DNA of 64,000 nucleotides, taken from NCBI GenBank assembly GCA_011523515.1, contig WTGO01000054.1:1-64000 (forward strand), written 5' to 3'. This document shows, in pieces, positions 25,434-39,104 of this stretch. Numbering within the stretch: the stretch's first letter is position 1; each line of letters opens with the position of its first letter. The position numbers and the translations under genes are program-made. This DNA comes from Chloroflexota bacterium. Lineage in GTDB: Bacteria > Chloroflexota > Anaerolineae > Aggregatilineales > Phototrophicaceae. Below the pieces are notes generated by a model. It worked only from the letters and a program-made list of their open reading frames with translations, had not been told where the DNA came from and made no database searches.

Positions 25434-26768
25434 TCAGGCAATGATTTTCGCTTCAATCTCATCCATCAGGCGCTGCCGCACTCGTTCAAAGGGGATGCGC
25501 TGCAGCAGTTCGTCGAAGAAGCCCTCGATGATCATCAGCTGCGCCTGCGGCCGTGTGATGCCGCGGCTCATTAGATAATAGATGGGCTCTTCTTCGAGAG
25601 TGCCGAATGTGGCGGCGTGTGAACAGGCGACATCATCCGCCTCAATCTCCAGCCCCGGAATGCTGTCCATGCGCGCTTCGTCGCTGAGCATCAAATTGCG
25701 GCAGACCTGGTAGCCGTCGATTTGCTGCATCTTGGGCAAGGACTTGATCATGCCCTGCCAGAGCGTGCGGGCATTGTCGCGCGCGGCGCCCTTGAAGAGC
25801 AGGTCGGTATTTGTCAGCGGCGCATTGTGGTTCTGCTGCGTATCTAGATCGAAGAATTGGCCGCGGTCGGCGAAGAAGAAGCCGCTCACGCGCGCATTGG
25901 CGCCGGCGCCCACGGTATCGACTTCGATGAAGGCTTTGGTGAGCCGGCTGCCCATCACGCCGTTGACCCAATCCAACTGCGCGTCGCGGCCGACGACGCC
26001 GCGCTGATGGCTGAATTCGAAGGTCTCCCGATTCCAGTCTTGCAGCGAGACGTAACGCAGGTTGCCGGCGGCGCCAACGATGAGTTCGGTGGCGCCGATA
26101 TATGCCGACTGCCGCGCGCGGTCTTGCGATGCGTATTCGACTTGCATGGTCGCCTGGGCATTTTCGTCCAGCACGACCAGGACATGGCCCAGTCCGGCGC
26201 CGGCCGCCGTGTTGTAACAAACGACATGCAGCGGCAATTCGGCAGCTGTGTTGCGCGGCACATGAACGAAGACGCCGTAGTCCCAGAGCGCGGCGTGCAG
26301 AGCGGCGAATTTGCCGTCGGCGGGCGTCACGGCGCGGGTCATAAAGTGCGCCTTGACCAGGTCTTCGCGCTCGCGCACGGCCGTGCGCAAGTCGGTAAAG
26401 ATCACGCCTTGCCGCGCCAATTGATCAGCGAGTTCGTGGCTGACGACCTTGCCGTCGACGAATACGAGCAGACCACCCTGCTCCGCGCCGGTCAGCGGCT
26501 CCAGGTTTTTTACGGGAACGGAGCGGGCATCGACGCCGTTGGCGTTGATCAGCCTATCGGCTTCATCCCAGCGAATATGGCGATAGTCGGTGCGGCGCCA
26601 CTCTTCTTCCATATAGGGCATGGGCAACGCTTGATACTGCGCCCAGGCTTCGAGACGGCGCTCGCGCAGCCAGTCGGGTTCGTCGTGGTCTCGGCTGATC
26701 GCCTCGACCTGTTCGATGGTGTAGCTCGGCGCTTGCGGAAGCGACGATCGTCTGCGTACAACTGCCAA
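25434..26768 (-). CDS. sufD: Fe-S cluster assembly protein SufD
   Basis: SufD forms the SufBC2D scaffold for Fe-S cluster assembly in the cytosol. The 444 residues contain an N-terminal helical region and the beta-helix core with GANARVSGFFFADRGQFFDL and AAFGT-like segments near the end (CSHAATFGTLEEEPIYYLMS RG pattern). The TTG start at 26768 has AAGGAG seven bases upstream. It lies 101 bases downstream of sufB, and the gap carries a palindromic repeat. sufU follows after 110 bases. Confidence 0.95.
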   Translation of the reverse strand: MAVVRRRSSLPQAPSYTIEQVEAISRDHDEPDWLRERRLEAWAQYQALPMPYMEEEWRRTDYRHIRWDEADRLINANGVDARSVPVKNLEPLTGAEQGGLLVFVDGKVVSHELADQLARQGVIFTDLRTAVREREDLVKAHFMTRAVTPADGKFAALHAALWDYGVFVHVPRNTAAELPLHVVCYNTAAGAGLGHVLVVLDENAQATMQVEYASQDRARQSAYIGATELIVGAAGNLRYVSLQDWNRETFEFSHQRGVVGRDAQLDWVNGVMGSRLTKAFIEVDTVGAGANARVSGFFFADRGQFFDLDTQQNHNAPLTNTDLLFKGAARDNARTLWQGMIKSLPKMQQIDGYQVCRNLMLSDEARMDSIPGLEIEADDVACSHAATFGTLEEEPIYYLMSRGITRPQAQLMIIEGFFDELLQRIPFERVRQRLMDEIEAKIIA

Positions 26769-26826
26769 TTTGCTGCTCCTTCTATGGGCAATACATCAGA
26801 TCGCCCACGCATGTTTGCTGGATCGC

Positions 26827-26852
26827 GGGCGCCCCACCGGGTCGCCCCTACA
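26827..26852. repeat. Palindromic dispersed repeat between sufB and sufD
   Basis: GGGCGCCC, a short loop and GGGTCGCCCCTACAA form a hairpin of the same family as 1970-1994. Inside a presumed polycistronic message it could act as a processing or stability hairpin. Confidence 0.6.
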
Positions 26853-26869
26853 AGACAATTGGCGGCGGG

Positions 26870-28318
26870 TTAGCCGATGGAGCCTTCCAGCTGAATTTGT
26901 ATCAGCCGGTTGAGCTCAAGCGCGTATTCCATCGGCAATTCCTTGACCAGCGGCTCCAGGAAACCGTTGACGATCATGGCATTGGCTTCGTCTTCGCCGA
27001 TGCCGCGGCTCATTAGATAGAAGAGCTGATCTTCACCAACTTTGCTGACCGACGCCTCATGGCCCATGGTTACATTTTTGGCGTCGATCTCGATCGTCGG
27101 ATAGGTGTCCGAACGGCTAAAGTCATCAAGGAGCAAGGCGTCACAGACCACGTTGCTTTTGCTGTGATGCGCCGCTTCGTCGATCTTGAGCAGGCCGCGG
27201 TAGCTGGCTCGGCCGCCATCCTTGCTGATCGACTTGCTGATGATTTGGCTGGTGGTATTCGGCGCCAAGTGGGTGATCTTGGCGCCCGCGTCCTGGTGCT
27301 GGCCGTCGCCGGCAAAGGCGATCGAGAGCACCTCGCCGTGCGCGCCCTCACCGCGCAATATCACCGCCGGATACTTCATCGTCAGGCGACTGCCCAGGTT
27401 GCCGTCCACCCATTCCATAGTCGCGCCTTCTTCGGCGACGGCGCGCTTCGTCACCAGGTTGTAGACGTTATTGGACCAATTCTGGATGGTGGTATAGCGG
27501 CAGCGGCCGCCTTTCTTGACTATGATTTCGACGACGGCGCTGTGCAGGCTGTCCGAGCTGTAGATGGGCGCTGTGCAGCCTTCGACATAGTGAACGTAGG
27601 CGTCTTCATCGACGATGATCAGCGTGCGCTCAAACTGGCCCATATTCTGCGTGTTGATGCGGAAATAGGCTTGCAGCGGCATCTCGACATGCACGCCCGG
27701 CGGCACATATATGAAACTGCCGCCCGACCAGACTGATGTATTGAGCGCGGCGAATTTGTTGTCGTTAGACGGGATAACCGTACCGAAATATTCCTGGACG
27801 ATTTCAGGGTGCTCGCGCAACCCCGAATCCATATCCAGAAAGATTACGCCCTGCTCTTCCAGGCTGTCCTGAATCTTGTGATAGACAGACTCGCTGTCGT
27901 ATTGCGCCGAAACGCCATGCAGAAATTTCTGCTCTGCTTCGGGAATACCCAGCTTGTCAAAGGTGTCTTTGATATCTTGCGGCACCTCGTCCCAGTCGTC
28001 TTCGGACTTGTCCGTCGCGCGGACGTAGTAGTAGATATCGTCGTAGTCGATGCGGTTAAGGTCGCCGCCCCATTGCGGAGTCGGCTTGTCCATGAAGATG
28101 TCAAAGGCCTCGACGCGCCGATCGGTCATCCATTGCGGCTCGTCCTTCATGCCGCTGATCTGGCGGACGATGTCCTCGTTGATGCCCTTCTGGCTCTTGA
28201 AGGTGTAGTCGACATCGGCGTCATGAAAGCCGTACTTTTCGGCATAGCTCAGGCCGACTTCCTTCAAGGCTTCTTCTTCGTGCGTCAGCTGCTTTTCGCT
28301 CTGAATCGCGTCAACCAT
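26870..28318 (-). CDS. sufB: Fe-S cluster assembly protein SufB
   Basis: SufB is the main scaffold of the SufBC2D complex. The 482-residue length is typical. Motifs include [59 protein letters not shown] and the C-terminal [23 protein letters not shown] at 28318 is preceded by GAGGAAC. It starts 18 bases after sufC on the same strand. Confidence 0.97.
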
Positions 28319-28336
28319 GATTCGTTCCTCTTCCGC

Positions 28337-29122
28337 TTAGACTTCCGCCAAGGCCAGGTGTTTCTCCCGAATCCACTCGTAGCCCTTCTCTTCCAGCTCG
28401 AGCGCCAGTTCGGGACCACCGCTCTCAACAATTCTGCCATCATACAACACATGCACATAGTCCGGCTTGATGTGATTCAACATGCGCTGATAGTGAGTGA
28501 TGACCAGCGCGCCCATATCTGGGCCGGTCAGCGCATTGACGCCGTCGGCGACGATGCGCAGCGCATCAATATCCAGGCCGGAGTCGGTTTCATCCAGCAC
28601 GGCAATGCGCGGCTCGAGAACCGCCATTTGCAATACTTCAGCGCGCTTCTTTTCTCCGCCGCTAAAACCTTCATTCAGGTAGCGCCCGGCAAAAGAGTGA
28701 TCGATATGCAAGTCCGTCATCTTCTGGCGCATCATGCGGGCGAATCTGGGAATGGGAATGCCCTTGCTCTCCGGGTCGTCCGCTTTCATGCGCGCGTTGA
28801 TCGCATGGCGCAGGAAGTTAGCCAACGTGACGCCCGGAATCGCCACCGGATACTGAAACGCCAGGAACAGACCGGCGCGGCTGCGCTCATCGGGCTCCAT
28901 GTCGAGTACGTTCTCGCCATCCAAGAGTACGGCGCCTTCACGCACGTCATAGGCTGGATTCCCCATCAGGATATTGGCAAGCGTGCTCTTGCCGGAGCCG
29001 TTTGGCCCCATCAGCGCGTGAATTTCGCCCTGCTTCACTGTCAAATCCACACCGCGCAGAATCAATTCATCATCGCCTTCTACGCTGACGTGCAGGTTTT
29101 TTATCTGCAATGTTGCGGTCAT
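28337..29122 (-). CDS. sufC: Fe-S cluster assembly ATPase SufC
   Basis: SufC is the ABC-type ATPase that powers the SufBC2D scaffold. The 261 residues contain Walker [20 protein letters not shown] near residue 40, the ABC signature [14 protein letters not shown] near residue 152 and Walker [18 protein letters not shown]. It is the first gene of the leftward suf operon and has a good promoter-like site at 29196-29224. Confidence 0.97.
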
Positions 29123-29195
29123 TCGGGGCGGTGCTCCCTTCTCCCTGATTTAATGCCGGTTAAATCTACTGTATAACCGAATCGAACTTGCCTGC

Positions 29196-29224
29196 AGTCT
29201 AACAGCGCGGCCGTGCCTTGTCAA
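29196..29224 (-). promoter_or_regulatory. Candidate suf operon promoter
   Basis: On the minus strand TTGACA (29224-29219) is followed at exactly 17 bases by TAGACT (29201-29196). Transcription would start near 29188, leaving a leader of about 65 bases before sufC. Confidence 0.7.
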
Positions 29225-29320
29225 CAGCATAACGAGGAAGAAGCACCCGCTCTGGCGCCGCAGAACCATCCGCTATCATACTTTAGCGCAGCAAGCATAG
29301 AATTGCGTTAACGCTTGATG

Positions 29321-29346
29321 CGATTCGTCAAATTGACAGCGAATCG
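29321..29346. promoter_or_regulatory. Inverted repeat over the sufT -35 region
   Basis: CGATTCG (29321-29327) and CGAATCG (29340-29346) form a perfect 7-bp inverted repeat with a 12-base spacer that contains the TTGACA box. A second short palindrome, GCGTTAACGC, lies at 29305-29314. Either could be an operator for an Fe-S-responsive regulator in the shared sufC-sufT region. This is an inference from position only. Confidence 0.4.
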
Positions 29347-29361
29347 TCACTGTACTATGCT
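29333..29361 (+). promoter_or_regulatory. Candidate sufT promoter
   Basis: TTGACA (29333-29338) and TATGCT (29356-29361) are 17 bases apart. The start would fall near 29368, about 80 bases before the ATG. The site is divergent from the suf operon promoter about 110 bases away. Confidence 0.6.
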
Positions 29362-29447
29362 TAACTGGCTGCCACATACCGGCATCGGAACTAGACAAGA
29401 CAACATGCTGCGCTGAGCGAGTCAGCGCTAATCCAGGGGACAATGAC

Positions 29448-29744
29448 ATGAGCGAAAAAGAAGCCGGACTTTATGAGGCCTTGCGCACGGTGATAGACCC
29501 GGAAATCGGCATGAATGTTGTCGAATTGGGTTTGGTGCGAGGAGTCGACATTGGGGAAGACAGCGCGCACGTGAACATGATCATGACCACGCCTTTTTGC
29601 CCTTATGCGCCGCAACTGCTGGAGCAGACTCGACGTACGACGCAGGACTTCCTTGGTGTGCCGACGACCATTGAGATGGGTATGGAAATGTGGGATCCCA
29701 GCATGATGGAGGAAGGCGCCGCCAGCGACTGGGGGCTGTTCTAG
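29448..29744 (+). CDS. sufT: SufT/MIP18-like (DUF59) Fe-S maturation protein
   Basis: A 98-residue protein of the DUF59/MIP18 family, whose members (SufT, PaaD, Cia2) help place Fe-S clusters into target proteins. The signature is TVIDPEIGMNVVELGLVRGV, followed by a Cys in TTPFCPYAP. It is divergent from sufC across 325 bases, and the location supports a SufT role. PaaD is less likely without phenylacetate genes. Confidence 0.88.
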   Translation: MSEKEAGLYEALRTVIDPEIGMNVVELGLVRGVDIGEDSAHVNMIMTTPFCPYAPQLLEQTRRTTQDFLGVPTTIEMGMEMWDPSMMEEGAASDWGLF

Positions 29745-29896: not shown

Positions 29897-32023
29897 CTAA
29901 GGACGATGCCGGCGAATCCAATCCAGTGGATCAATGTAATTCGCGATGAGCAAATCATAATCTTGCTTGGGCCAGTTGCTGGGGCGCGTCGCCAGCAGCG
30001 TTGTGGGGCTCAAGTCAAAGTGCAGGTGCGGCACGAAACGGCCAAACGCGTCGCCGACTTCGCAAATGCGCTGGCCACGGGCAACGCGATCGCCCACTTC
30101 CACGCGCGGATTCTGCACATGAGCGTAACGGCTGTAGATGACCTGGCCGGATGGTTCGAAGAGCGGATCGTGGCGGATGATCACCAGATTGCCCCATACG
30201 CCAAAGCGCGCGGACACCGTCACGATACCGCTGGCGCAGGCGTAACAGGCCATGCCCTTGTCGGCATAGGGCGCGCCGAAGTTTAGATCAGCGCCAGTAT
30301 GGTAGGCTTCGCTGGGCGTGCCGATGAAATAGAGCTTGCCAAAGGGCGAGGCATCGCGCCAGCCGGGGGGCCAAAGCTCCGTGCCGCTGCGCTGTTCGGT
30401 TGTGCCCACAGGCGAATCATAGCCATCGGCGACATGGACGCCATTTATATTCGTTGGACGCGATGGGTCTGGCGCCGGGGTATAGCCGGCCGGCGTTGAC
30501 ACAATGCGGCGAAAGCGGACGGCGTCGAAGGCGATTTCCTTGTCCGGCTCGCCGGTGACATCGTTGAGGAAAACGCGCCCGGCGTTCTCCATGTTCCGGT
30601 CCAGATCAAATACGCCCAGGGCCACCCATTGATTGCGATTCTTGTTCTGGTTGATGTCAATCACAACTTCGGTCGTCGTGCCGACGATACCGTGCACTTT
30701 GTAACGCGCGCGCATAGTCGTGGCTTTACGATTGGGGATAAAGACCGAGATTTCGTACAAGCCGTTGCGCGGCAATACATCACGCCATTCGGCCCAGACC
30801 TTGCTGGTGCGTTCTTCGGTGCTGACGTAGAGATAATCCCAGCCCCAGGTATTCTGCCGCGCGCTGAATTCCGGTTTGCCGGTGTAGGTGCCGCTGCGAA
30901 AACCCTGTTTGTTGGGCAGAATTGTCACTTCGTCGGTGAAGTTCTGTACGATGTCCGAGTCTGGATCAGCCGGCGAACCGGTCAGTTCAATCGGCTTGTT
31001 GACACCGGTCCACTGGGAAATCGTGCCGTAGCGCCACCAGCTCAGCCCCTTGGCGCCATGAACTTGGGTGGACAGCGTGTGGGCGGTGGTCTGCTCGCTA
31101 GTCACAGCGGAGCCTTCCAGCACTGGGATGATCGGTTTGTCGAAGCCGCTCCAGACGGTCCAGACTTCTGAGAGCGCTGCTTCAGGCGTATTGCGGAAGA
31201 TATTCCAATAAGTCTGCGGATGGACGCTGTCGACGAAGGGGCTCCATTCGCCGGGGTGGATGGTGTGATAATGCTGCCGACGCGGATCGACGCTCAATCC
31301 GATGTGGTAACGCGTCCCTAAACCTCGGCGCAGCGCCAACATAAAGGGCCGAACTTTGGACGCCCCACCCTTCCAGTAGCCTTCGTCGGCATAGGGCTCT
31401 ACATCCAGGATTAGCGATTCCACGCCGGCACGCGTGCAGGCCTCAATCAGGATGGCCGCTTCGCCCTCGACGTCCAGACCTTGCGGCACGCACCAGGCGT
31501 GAAATTCAAAGTCGGTCGCCTGGCAGGCCGTCACCCACTGGTCGATGCTTTCGGTCCCGTTGATGGCCATCGCGCTCGAATCGAAGCGCCCCATCCAGTC
31601 CGTGCCATTGGTGATCTTGACCCAGATTTGGTTGACATTGGGGGCTCTGGTCTTGATGTTGCTGAGCACTTCGGTCGCGGTGTTCTCGCTGACGGCGCTG
31701 CCCTTCCAGTGCCAGACCGCGACCTTGCCATCGTAGGGCGTCGGCTTGTGGCGCGAGGGCGAAGCGCCAATGGCCTGGATAAACTCGATATACCCCGCGT
31801 AAACCCAGCCCTTTAATCCGCCCTTTTCAATCCAGACCCAATTACTGCCGGTACGCGTGTCCGGGTAGTAGACTACAAGCGTGTTGTCAAGTAGATCGCC
31901 AATATCGGCGTAGTTGACGCCGGGACCGCGGCGAATATTGCTCAGCGCGGTCTTGGTGTTGGCTACGGCGACTATCCCGCCCCCGGCGTCATCGGGTTTG
32001 GGAACGAATGAGGAACTGCTCAT
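29897..32023 (-). CDS. Multidomain SH3 / TIM-barrel / golvesin-like / M23 peptidase
   Basis: A 708-residue cell-wall-directed protein. Domain order: bacterial SH3 (about residues 12-80, NIRRGPGVNYADIG and GWVYAGYIEF), a TIM barrel like GH25/DUF4015 (about 98-345, with the acidic motif LILDVEPYADEG), a golvesin/xanthan-lyase-type binding domain (about 375-515) and a zinc peptidase of family M23 (about 575-700). The M23 ligands are complete: HTGADLNFGAP (His-x3-Asp) and PHLHFDL (His-x-His). The N-terminus (SSSSFVPKP) has no signal peptide or membrane segment. It is probably a peptidoglycan hydrolase; export would need another route or an upstream start I cannot see. Confidence 0.85.
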   Translation of the reverse strand: MSSSSFVPKPDDAGGGIVAVANTKTALSNIRRGPGVNYADIGDLLDNTLVVYYPDTRTGSNWVWIEKGGLKGWVYAGYIEFIQAIGASPSRHKPTPYDGKVAVWHWKGSAVSENTATEVLSNIKTRAPNVNQIWVKITNGTDWMGRFDSSAMAINGTESIDQWVTACQATDFEFHAWCVPQGLDVEGEAAILIEACTRAGVESLILDVEPYADEGYWKGGASKVRPFMLALRRGLGTRYHIGLSVDPRRQHYHTIHPGEWSPFVDSVHPQTYWNIFRNTPEAALSEVWTVWSGFDKPIIPVLEGSAVTSEQTTAHTLSTQVHGAKGLSWWRYGTISQWTGVNKPIELTGSPADPDSDIVQNFTDEVTILPNKQGFRSGTYTGKPEFSARQNTWGWDYLYVSTEERTSKVWAEWRDVLPRNGLYEISVFIPNRKATTMRARYKVHGIVGTTTEVVIDINQNKNRNQWVALGVFDLDRNMENAGRVFLNDVTGEPDKEIAFDAVRFRRIVSTPAGYTPAPDPSRPTNINGVHVADGYDSPVGTTEQRSGTELWPPGWRDASPFGKLYFIGTPSEAYHTGADLNFGAPYADKGMACYACASGIVTVSARFGVWGNLVIIRHDPLFEPSGQVIYSRYAHVQNPRVEVGDRVARGQRICEVGDAFGRFVPHLHFDLSPTTLLATRPSNWPKQDYDLLIANYIDPLDWIRRHRP

Positions 32024-32327
32024 GGTCTGGACCTCGCAGGAAAGCTAATACAGGCATGGTAGTACAAGTGCCGGATTTGGGCAAAGCCAGCGGCGCGTAT
32101 CCACAGCTTCATTGAAATGAGCCGCGCATAGGCGACTCTTTGTTCGCGTATCTTAATCTGGCTGAGCAAGCTAATGGGCGTTAACCAGAGTATACGCAAC
32201 TAAGTCGTGCAACAAAACTCAACTACAGCGAGCGCGGAAGCAAGTGCAAGTAAGTAATGAAAAAGACTTGCCACCGAGTACACAGAGTTGCAAAGAGCAT
32301 TCATTTCCATTGATACAGGAGTTGCAT

Positions 32328-37418: not shown

Positions 37419-38159
37419 TTAGCGTGGGACAATGGTGACTTTGCGTCCGCGACCCTCGCCGATGCTTTGGGTCATGACATCGCTTCGGCCGCGGAGTGTC
37501 ACGTGGATGATGCGCCGTTCATTAGGGTGCATGGGTTCGAGCGTTATCGTCCGGCCCTGCTGCACGGCTTGCTTCGCCATGCGATTGGCCAAGCCGCGCA
37601 ACCTCTTGGAGCGACCGGACTTGTAGCCGCCGGCATCGACGATGATATTGGCGCGGCGTTCCAGGCGACGGCTGCATATCAGGCGGACGATATGCTGCAA
37701 GGACGACAGCGTTTCGCCACGCCGGCCTATCAGTCGATTGACGCGGTCGCCGGAGATGTTGAGCATCCAGTGCGGATCTTCACCCTCATCGTCGTCCTCG
37801 GCGCGTTGGACAGCCACGCGCGCATCCACGCCCATTCGTTCCAGCAAGTCTTGAAGCACCTGTTTGCCAACCAGCGCGTCTTCGTCCAATTCGTCGTCCG
37901 CCAAACCGGGGTCGGGCGCGCTCGCTATCTTGCTTTCAAAGTTTGGGCTGTCATCGGTGAATTCTTCCGCTTCAGTCTCGGAGCGATTGCCGATCAGCAC
38001 CAGGCGCACGCGCGCCTCTTTCGCGCCGAAGCCAAACAGACCGGTGTTGGGCTCCTCAAGAACCTCCACGACGACCTCGCCCGGCCGCGCCTTGAGCTCC
38101 GCCAATCCTTTGTCGATCGCCGCCTCAACCGAATTGGCGGTTACTTCAATCATCTGCAT
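37419..38159 (-). CDS. jag: Jag/KhpB RNA-binding protein (SpoIIIJ-associated)
   Basis: A 246-residue RNA-binding protein. Domain order: Jag-N (about residues 1-55, with LEEPNTGLFGFGAKEARVRL), an acidic linker, a KH domain (about 115-185, ending before GRRGETLSSLQHIVRLI) and an R3H domain (about 185-246, ERRIIHVTLRGR and GEGRGRKVTIVP). Its place next to yidC is the standard one. In Gram-positive bacteria the protein is linked to cell wall growth and division. ATG at 38159 is preceded by AAGGGA. Confidence 0.93.
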   Translation of the reverse strand: MQMIEVTANSVEAAIDKGLAELKARPGEVVVEVLEEPNTGLFGFGAKEARVRLVLIGNRSETEAEEFTDDSPNFESKIASAPDPGLADDELDEDALVGKQVLQDLLERMGVDARVAVQRAEDDDEGEDPHWMLNISGDRVNRLIGRRGETLSSLQHIVRLICSRRLERRANIIVDAGGYKSGRSKRLRGLANRMAKQAVQQGRTITLEPMHPNERRIIHVTLRGRSDVMTQSIGEGRGRKVTIVPR

Positions 38160-38198
38160 AGTTCTATCCCTTGTCAGTCAGGCTGTTGCAGGTCCAGA

Positions 38199-39104
38199 TT
38201 ATTTCTTGCGCGGCTTCTTCTTTTTGCGCTTTCTGGTTTTGGCTGGCGGATTGTCATCCTCGAATATCACTTCCACCGGCGGCTCGTCCGATGACTTGCG
38301 GCGGAATACTCTTTCCAGGACGCGCTTGCCTTGCGGGCTGTATTGCACAACGCCGATCAAATTCGAGGTCACAAAATAGATTGACAAGCCGACCGAGAAC
38401 GACAGCGAGAAGAAACCGAACATGATGGGCATGATGGTGGTCATGCTCTTGGTCATGGCCGCCGCTTGTCCGCCGGCGGGCGCGCCGCTATCGTCGTCAT
38501 CGTCATCATCTTTGTTTGACTTGTTCTGTCCCATCGTGCCCATGGTCAGCTTTTGCTGGCCCCAGGTGGTGATCAAGACCAGCAAGGGCAAAATCAAGGC
38601 GTAATGCGGGTTTTCCGTCGGCGCCAGGGTCAGGTCCAGCTCCGGCAGCAGCGCCGCCAACTGCGGAATCGGCGTCCACATACGCTGTAGCGGTATTAGC
38701 GAATCCAGGCCCGGGATCAGCAGCCGCTCCGAGAGGTCGACCAATTGGAAGGGCGTTGCCGCCAGCGCGAAGAATATGGCCTGGTACAAGCCGATCAGAA
38801 TTGGAAACTGTATCACCATAGGAAAACAGCCGCCAACCGGGTTGACCTTGTTTTCTTTGTACAATTTCATCTGGGCTTGCGAGAGTTTTTCTTTATCGTT
38901 CTTGTACTTCTCCTGCAGCTTCTTTAGCTGAGGCTGGATTTGCTGCATCTTTTTTGACGACTCTTGCTGCTTGGCGAAGAGCGGAAAGGTCAAGATGCGG
39001 ATAATCACGGTCAAGACGACGATCGCCAGCACGATGTCCTGGTTTAGCGCGGCGTAAAGCCAAGCCAGAATCGTGACAAAGGGGTTAAGAATCAGATCCC
39101 ACAT
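38199..39104 (-). CDS. yidC: Membrane protein insertase YidC/Oxa1
   Basis: YidC inserts and folds membrane proteins. The 301-residue protein is of the short form without the large periplasmic domain. Membrane segments lie at about residues 8-40, 100-120, 170-190, 225-245 and 250-270. KENKVNPVGGCFPMVIQFPI near residue 90 is the family core. An Asp-rich loop (KDDDDDDDSG near residue 200) and a very basic tail (RKRKKKKPRKK) stand out; the tail would suit ribosome contact. GGAG precedes ATG 39104. Confidence 0.95.
   Translation of the reverse strand: MWDLILNPFVTILAWLYAALNQDIVLAIVVLTVIIRILTFPLFAKQQESSKKMQQIQPQLKKLQEKYKNDKEKLSQAQMKLYKENKVNPVGGCFPMVIQFPILIGLYQAIFFALAATPFQLVDLSERLLIPGLDSLIPLQRMWTPIPQLAALLPELDLTLAPTENPHYALILPLLVLITTWGQQKLTMGTMGQNKSNKDDDDDDDSGAPAGGQAAAMTKSMTTIMPIMFGFFSLSFSVGLSIYFVTSNLIGVVQYSPQGKRVLERVFRRKSSDEPPVEVIFEDDNPPAKTRKRKKKKPRKK

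Follow-up and report, generated by a model that had tools for sequence, protein, structure and literature searches.

Introduction

Cell wall hydrolases that lack a signal peptide are already known. Phage endolysins may be laid out as two enzyme domains accompanied by an SH3 domain, also with no signal peptide. Among the described enzymes, LytA is devoid of a signal peptide and, during the exponential phase, is cytoplasmic or associated with the membrane (PMC12029793). Cwp19 of Clostridioides difficile is a peptidoglycan lytic transglycosylase participating in stationary-phase autolysis, and the signal-less proteins of this species exit via the holin-like TcdE and/or autolysis involving Cwp19 (PMC6016235).

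The gene analyzed here lies at positions 29897..32023 (minus strand) of a 64,000-nucleotide stretch of a Chloroflexota contig, referred to below as the window, and encodes a candidate signal-less wall hydrolase with two enzyme domains. The first-pass annotation had described a lysin-like, multi-domain protein without a signal peptide, and this description was confirmed by the Pfam searches, the fold model, the hydropathy analysis and the true start of the gene. New are the domain set, its conservation across a whole order and the route by which the protein might leave the cell. A predicted wall-cutting enzyme that has no signal and is kept across an order implies either a built-in lysis enzyme or export by an undescribed path. 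Among open-licence PMC papers on Chloroflexota/Anaerolineae autolysins, M23–golvesin proteins and contractile cargo, no title or abstract start described this protein.

With LytA the protein shares its (here predicted) nature of a chromosomal wall hydrolase, the missing signal peptide and the relatives among phage endolysins (PMC12029793). LytA, however, is an amidase with choline-binding repeats, whereas the 708-residue protein combines a candidate barrel glycosidase with M23, golvesin and SH3-like domains; the likeness lies in the absent signal peptide, and lysis by the protein described here is what we infer. The two-enzyme endolysins of Gram-positive phages show the same layout, and the M23 part of the protein matches PHROG endolysin families. 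Unlike those endolysins, the gene has no phage neighbors in the sequence read, is inherited vertically within an order and encodes a golvesin domain; neither a holin (LrgA, Phage_holin_4_1) nor a full-length phage relative was found.

The Gene and Its Start Codon

The gene begins with ATG and codes for 708 amino acids followed by a stop codon. The stop-to-stop open reading frame spans 29897..32044, and an in-frame stop codon at 32045..32047 (minus strand) precedes the ATG by seven codons, so that a longer start is impossible and a signal peptide could not be accommodated. A Shine–Dalgarno-like GAGG motif (32032..32035, minus strand) is located 8 nt before the ATG. The upstream stop and the ribosome-binding motif establish that the annotated start is correct, and the check for an upstream start suggested by the first-pass annotation revealed no alternative.

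Domain Composition and Predicted Structure

Pfam recognized Golvesin_C (PF25275) at residues 387–505 (E 6e-15, 55.9 bits against the curated cut-off of 31.6) and Peptidase_M23 (PF01551) at residues 575–671 (E 2e-14, 53.8 bits against 28.7). The corresponding parts of the protein are a golvesin C-terminal-type beta domain, residues 362–508 (30500..30940, minus strand), with a probable role in polysaccharide binding, and an M23 metallopeptidase, residues 530–708 (29900..30436, minus strand). At the N-terminus an SH3-like domain extends over residues 16–86 (31766..31978, minus strand); SH3_3 (PF08239) matched at residues 29–80 just under its cut-off (E 1e-5, 25.8 bits against the curated 27), and beta strands were predicted across the region in the AlphaFold model. 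The segment of about residues 94–345 (30989..31744, minus strand) matched no Pfam family; modeled alone, it formed an eight-strand TIM barrel with a mean pLDDT of 96.0. The same barrel was visible when AlphaFold modeled the full-length protein (mean pLDDT 84.5); the pTM of this model, 0.43, renders the relative placement of the domains unreliable. NCBIfam returned M23-type models and one weak row of another kind, all far under the cut-offs.

The closest folds to the barrel among the matches listed, with those within 1 Z counted as tied, were the Pyrococcus GH18 chitinase 2dsk (Z 19.3, 2.9 Å, 231 residues), a GH164 mannosidase (Z 18.9), Cwp19 (Z 18.6, 240 residues, 3.6 Å, 15% identity) and the cortex-lytic SleL (Z 17.6). 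GH18 chitinases and SleL share with the barrel both the fold (Z about 17–19 among the matches listed) and a DxE at strand 4, which is the GH18 motif, but the identity amounts to about 8–15% and there is no family match at the sequence level: GH18 or GHL10 of Pfam matched none of the 34 barrel rows, and the barrel profile run against the PDB sequences gave two rows, both with E above 1 and neither of them GH18 or GHL10. The first-pass annotation had called the domain GH25-like. A TIM barrel was present, and GH25 found no support as its family name, with no GH25 match in Pfam, no GH25 entry among the 50 structure matches listed, and GH18, GH164 and Cwp19 as the closest of them. The likeness of fold suggests a GH18/Cwp19-type barrel with a predicted glycosidase activity. 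Cwp19, unlike the 708-residue protein, bears three CWB2 motifs as well as a signal peptide, and it is drawn without an M23 domain (PMC6016235). Since the barrel belongs to no Pfam family and recurs in other enzyme fusions, it may be regarded as a candidate new glycosidase family, its activity being predicted.

A search of the viral structure library with the whole model placed two uncharacterized phage proteins of 255–294 residues, A0A6J5P508 and A0A6J5L5X0, first and fourth; the former (294 residues) showed 18% identity over 283 columns. Their size suggests that the barrel is the matched region.

For the M23 part, the closest folds among the matches listed were ShyA (Z 18.0), StM23 (17.7) and LysTt72 (17.6), at 23–29% identity. 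These enzymes have the M23 fold in common with the 708-residue protein, in which the metal and catalytic positions of the family are present, and differ from it in their partner domains. LysTt72 and other wall peptidases resemble the M23 part in sequence as well as in structure, and Thermus phages supplied further matches, among both M23 peptidases and endolysins.

The M23 motif consists of HxxxD and HxH with the metal and catalytic residues. All zinc ligands had been reported in the first-pass annotation, rightly: H575, D579, H635, H666 and H668, which we take to be the M23 metal and catalytic positions, were invariant in 40/40 aligned sequences. So were D207, E209, H240, D246, Y272 and W273 of the barrel (40/40), with D207-V208-E209 (31397..31405, minus strand), the predicted catalytic DxE pair, at the end of strand 4 in the model. 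Both the alignment and the gene tree comprised 40 of 56 sequences, picked for spread. The DxE was kept in most rows of the barrel relatives that have other partners, the exceptions being L250, L251 and L252, with L236 differing.

The SH3-like part was present in the 19 alignment rows of family f1 and missing in the 21 rows of families f2 to f8, the proteins of which start at or just before the barrel. Judged from these alignments, barrel–golvesin–M23 is a combination of long standing in the order and the SH3-like part is the sole addition, confined among the aligned rows to f1. The notion of four domains of different origin is fair for the folds.

Distribution and Selection

Orthologues with about 38–92% identity were found in 58 of the 61 related genomes and were absent from G003, G019 and G035. 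The class-wide sample of 249 genomes contained the full-length protein in 14 of the 15 members of the order (G204 being the one without it) and in none of the 234 others. The best matches, at least 77 loci, were labeled Chloroflexi, Chloroflexota, Anaerolineae and similar, one of them Aggregatilineales; exceptions among the matches listed were L119, from a bin labeled Bacteroidetes, and four weak partial matches from other groups (L174–L177). Every family stayed together in the 40-row gene tree, with seven label changes among eight families, which is the minimum possible. In comparisons with four relatives the dN/dS ratio ranged from 0.056 to 0.093, and dS exceeded 1 for three of these. On the grounds of the wide retention, the family-congruent tree and these dN/dS values, the gene is old, vertically inherited and under purifying selection.

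The Missing Export Signal

The 708-residue protein and 55 orthologues were inspected (56 sequences; excluded were the orthologues of G056, which runs off its contig, and G047, which is spread over two frames). By a hydropathy test, which is crude, no convincing signal peptide was detected in any of the 56 sequences. The highest hydropathy from the chosen start was 1.52, and in 55 of the 56 no hydrophobic stretch could be reached from an upstream start. The examination of homologues recommended by the first-pass annotation thus extended its observation, Tat-type signals appearing only in distant relatives of the barrel, and the missing signal is a rule of the order rather than a peculiarity of one odd protein.

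The hydropathy survey was carried over to other domain combinations, with a threshold of 2.0 or more and with every start codon ahead of the first domain admitted, so that internal segments count; the loci overlap, only identical ORFs were merged and some rows are truncated copies. The threshold was reached in 1/61 SH3–barrel–golvesin–M23 proteins (the upstream frame of L008), 0/39 barrel–golvesin–M23, 0/10 golvesin–M23 and 1/13 M23–golvesin proteins (L201, an internal segment at position 270). It was reached in 0/12 proteins with the barrel only, 0/2 barrel–golvesin, 0/1 SH3–barrel and 0/2 SH3-only proteins, the barrel-only and barrel–golvesin classes being assigned by our own profiles (L067, among the 12, has M23 by Pfam). 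The figure for M23-only proteins, 17/26, is inflated by the counting of internal segments. Overall, a hydrophobic N-terminus was scored by the crude test in 2/123 fusions of M23 and golvesin, neither of them convincing. Of the 25 golvesin loci with neither barrel nor M23, which were picked from the better-scoring rows and not at random, 23 had a hydrophobic N-terminus; the two exceptions were L167, an ORF from a broken gene, and L246, cut by a contig end.

Barrel matches are rare at the phylum level (8/400 genomes). Four of the six matches outside the class (L258, L259, L260 and L263) had Tat-type (twin-arginine) N-termini, and L263 also carried two LysM stretches; L261 had no signal and L264 no clear one. 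The three matches within the class and outside the order (L257, L262, L265) had no signal. The hydrophobic N-termini of golvesin-only proteins and the Tat-type barrel relatives, one with LysM, indicate a probable site of action of the barrel outside the membrane. TatC is present.

The genome contains six M23 matches. Four of these proteins start with a hydrophobic segment of the ordinary kind, and so a normal export route exists in this genome. The remaining two are the 708-residue protein and a 1062-aa fusion of a phosphotransferase (APH), M23 and a class-III aminotransferase (G000:C52, L212) with no N-terminal hydrophobic segment.

Other arrangements of the same domains were also encountered. 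The barrel is fused to Peptidase_C39_2, or to golvesin plus a GDSL lipase, in L066, L235, L068 and L061, with no hydrophobic N-terminus by the crude test. Proteins of other Anaerolineae (L197, L201–L204, L206) start with a long N-terminal part of another kind, followed by M23 and then golvesin, and have no convincing signal.

Discussion

We regard the chances as about even that the protein is a LytA-type, endolysin-like autolysin, vertically inherited and freed by lysis or through a pore, with its activity predicted. The binding modules, together with the barrel relatives that have Tat-type signals or LysM, point to a substrate outside the membrane, the missing signal means that the protein starts inside, and an autolysin waiting in the cytosol is the simplest way to reconcile the two. 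The protein would be made and kept in the cytosol, with the membrane separating it from its substrate. Upon a breach of the membrane by cell death, stress, phage attack or a pore, the enzyme would get to the wall, where the SH3-like and golvesin domains might hold it. With its GH18-type DxE pair the barrel would then cut the glycan strand and M23 would open the peptide cross-links, which would end in lysis of the cell or its neighbors. The cutting of peptidoglycan glycan, the wall binding by the modules, the trigger and the release route are all presumptive steps of this scheme. Several observations speak against the autolysin: the neighboring genes form no lysis cassette, no LrgA or Phage_holin_4_1 partner was found (LrgA in 0/61 genomes; Phage_holin_4_1 searched for in this genome), the likeness to GH18 is one of fold, and five barrel relatives (L261, L264, L257, L262 and L265) lack a clear signal.

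A role in growth, reached by undescribed export, would also fit an enzyme that is lethal and yet fixed in a whole order, and such export is the main rival to the autolysin. According to this explanation, the protein leaves living cells with no cleavable N-terminal signal, by a non-classical route, in vesicles or with a partner bearing a Tat signal, and reshapes the wall during growth, division or the separation of filaments. The retention in 58/61 genomes and the purifying selection suit such a routine function. In the order and the class, further proteins with no hydrophobic N-terminus combine this N-terminal part or a different one with golvesin, M23, C39 peptidase or GDSL lipase and look like a set of surface enzymes using one undescribed route; TatC is encoded, and some of the distant barrel relatives have Tat-type signals. 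Yet no common motif or partner gene was found, SUF genes being the sole neighbors seen in several families, and four other M23 proteins of the genome have ordinary N-terminal segments. Overall, export from living cells is a tentative alternative, possible and still clearly weaker than the autolysin. A broader version appears more doubtful still: Anaerolineae would keep shuffling a signal-less surface-enzyme set (barrel or other N-terminal parts with M23, C39 peptidase, GDSL lipase and golvesin), exported by an undescribed route with the barrel or golvesin–M23 as the carrier, an ancestral Tat signal of the barrel having been replaced.

NagZ, LdcA and AmpD are cytosolic enzymes of peptidoglycan recycling. 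The 708-residue protein might similarly digest imported muropeptides in the cytosol and never meet the intact wall, which would explain, without any need for export, why the signal is consistently missing; the signal-less 1062-aa fusion of the same genome demonstrates that an M23 domain can be cytosolic. We consider this unlikely, as the SH3-like and golvesin modules would suit a polymer and not small fragments, the M23 relatives are mostly wall hydrolases among the matches listed, and some barrel relatives are of the Tat type, one with LysM.

The first-pass annotation had named release by lysis, a contractile system and unknown export as possible ways out. The first and the last are left standing, whereas the contractile system is not. 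Chloroflexota do possess contractile systems (PMC12998442), and archaeal signal-less peptidoglycan hydrolases are weakly enriched in sheath-bearing genomes (P = 0.059, PMC12352652). The sheath PF04984 was detected in 9/61 genomes and in 1/34 of the genus. It was not found in this genome and was missing from 50 of the 58 genomes that carry an orthologue (present in 8), so delivery by a contractile system is unlikely. As to a prophage or plasmid origin, the barrel-sized phage protein A0A6J5P508 was among the best viral structure matches, but no relatives were found in viral contigs, no phage or plasmid match covered 80% of the protein, and the neighbors are cellular. The phage and plasmid matches listed, 20 of 40 and 5 of 31 respectively, sit at the C-terminal M23 end. 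The origin from a prophage or plasmid was rejected with no full-length phage or plasmid relative and no phage neighborhood, and it is on the whole very improbable that the protein serves as the payload of a tailocin, a prophage or a contractile injection system.

An overlooked signal peptide behind a misplaced start can hardly be credited, since only L008 (1/56) has an upstream start with a possible hydrophobic N-terminus, in a frame absent from the other sequences, whereas an in-frame stop lies seven codons upstream here and within about 15 codons in 42/56, and a ribosome-binding motif precedes the chosen start in 49/56.

Gene Neighborhood

The gene is surrounded by iron–sulfur assembly, M29 peptidase and redoxin genes. 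FeS_assembly_P and SufC/B/D-like genes adjoin it at 25434..29744 of the window, and the same block stands beside the gene in 9 of 20 wider loci (L081, L085–L089, L091, L099 and L100), belonging to families f1, f3, f4 and f6. In the remaining 11 loci, some of them on short contigs, the block was not seen whole. No functional link between the gene and its SUF neighbors was evident. A defense system was also considered and discarded, with no PADLOC match at E 0.01.

In family f4 (L041, L044, L045 and L046), the orthologue is adjoined by a second, diverged golvesin–M23 protein with a different N-terminal part. Further along the window, at 37419..39104, a Jag-type gene (Jag_N, KH, R3H) lies beside a YidC-type gene (60KD_IMP); the Jag–YidC pair is often found near the replication origin.
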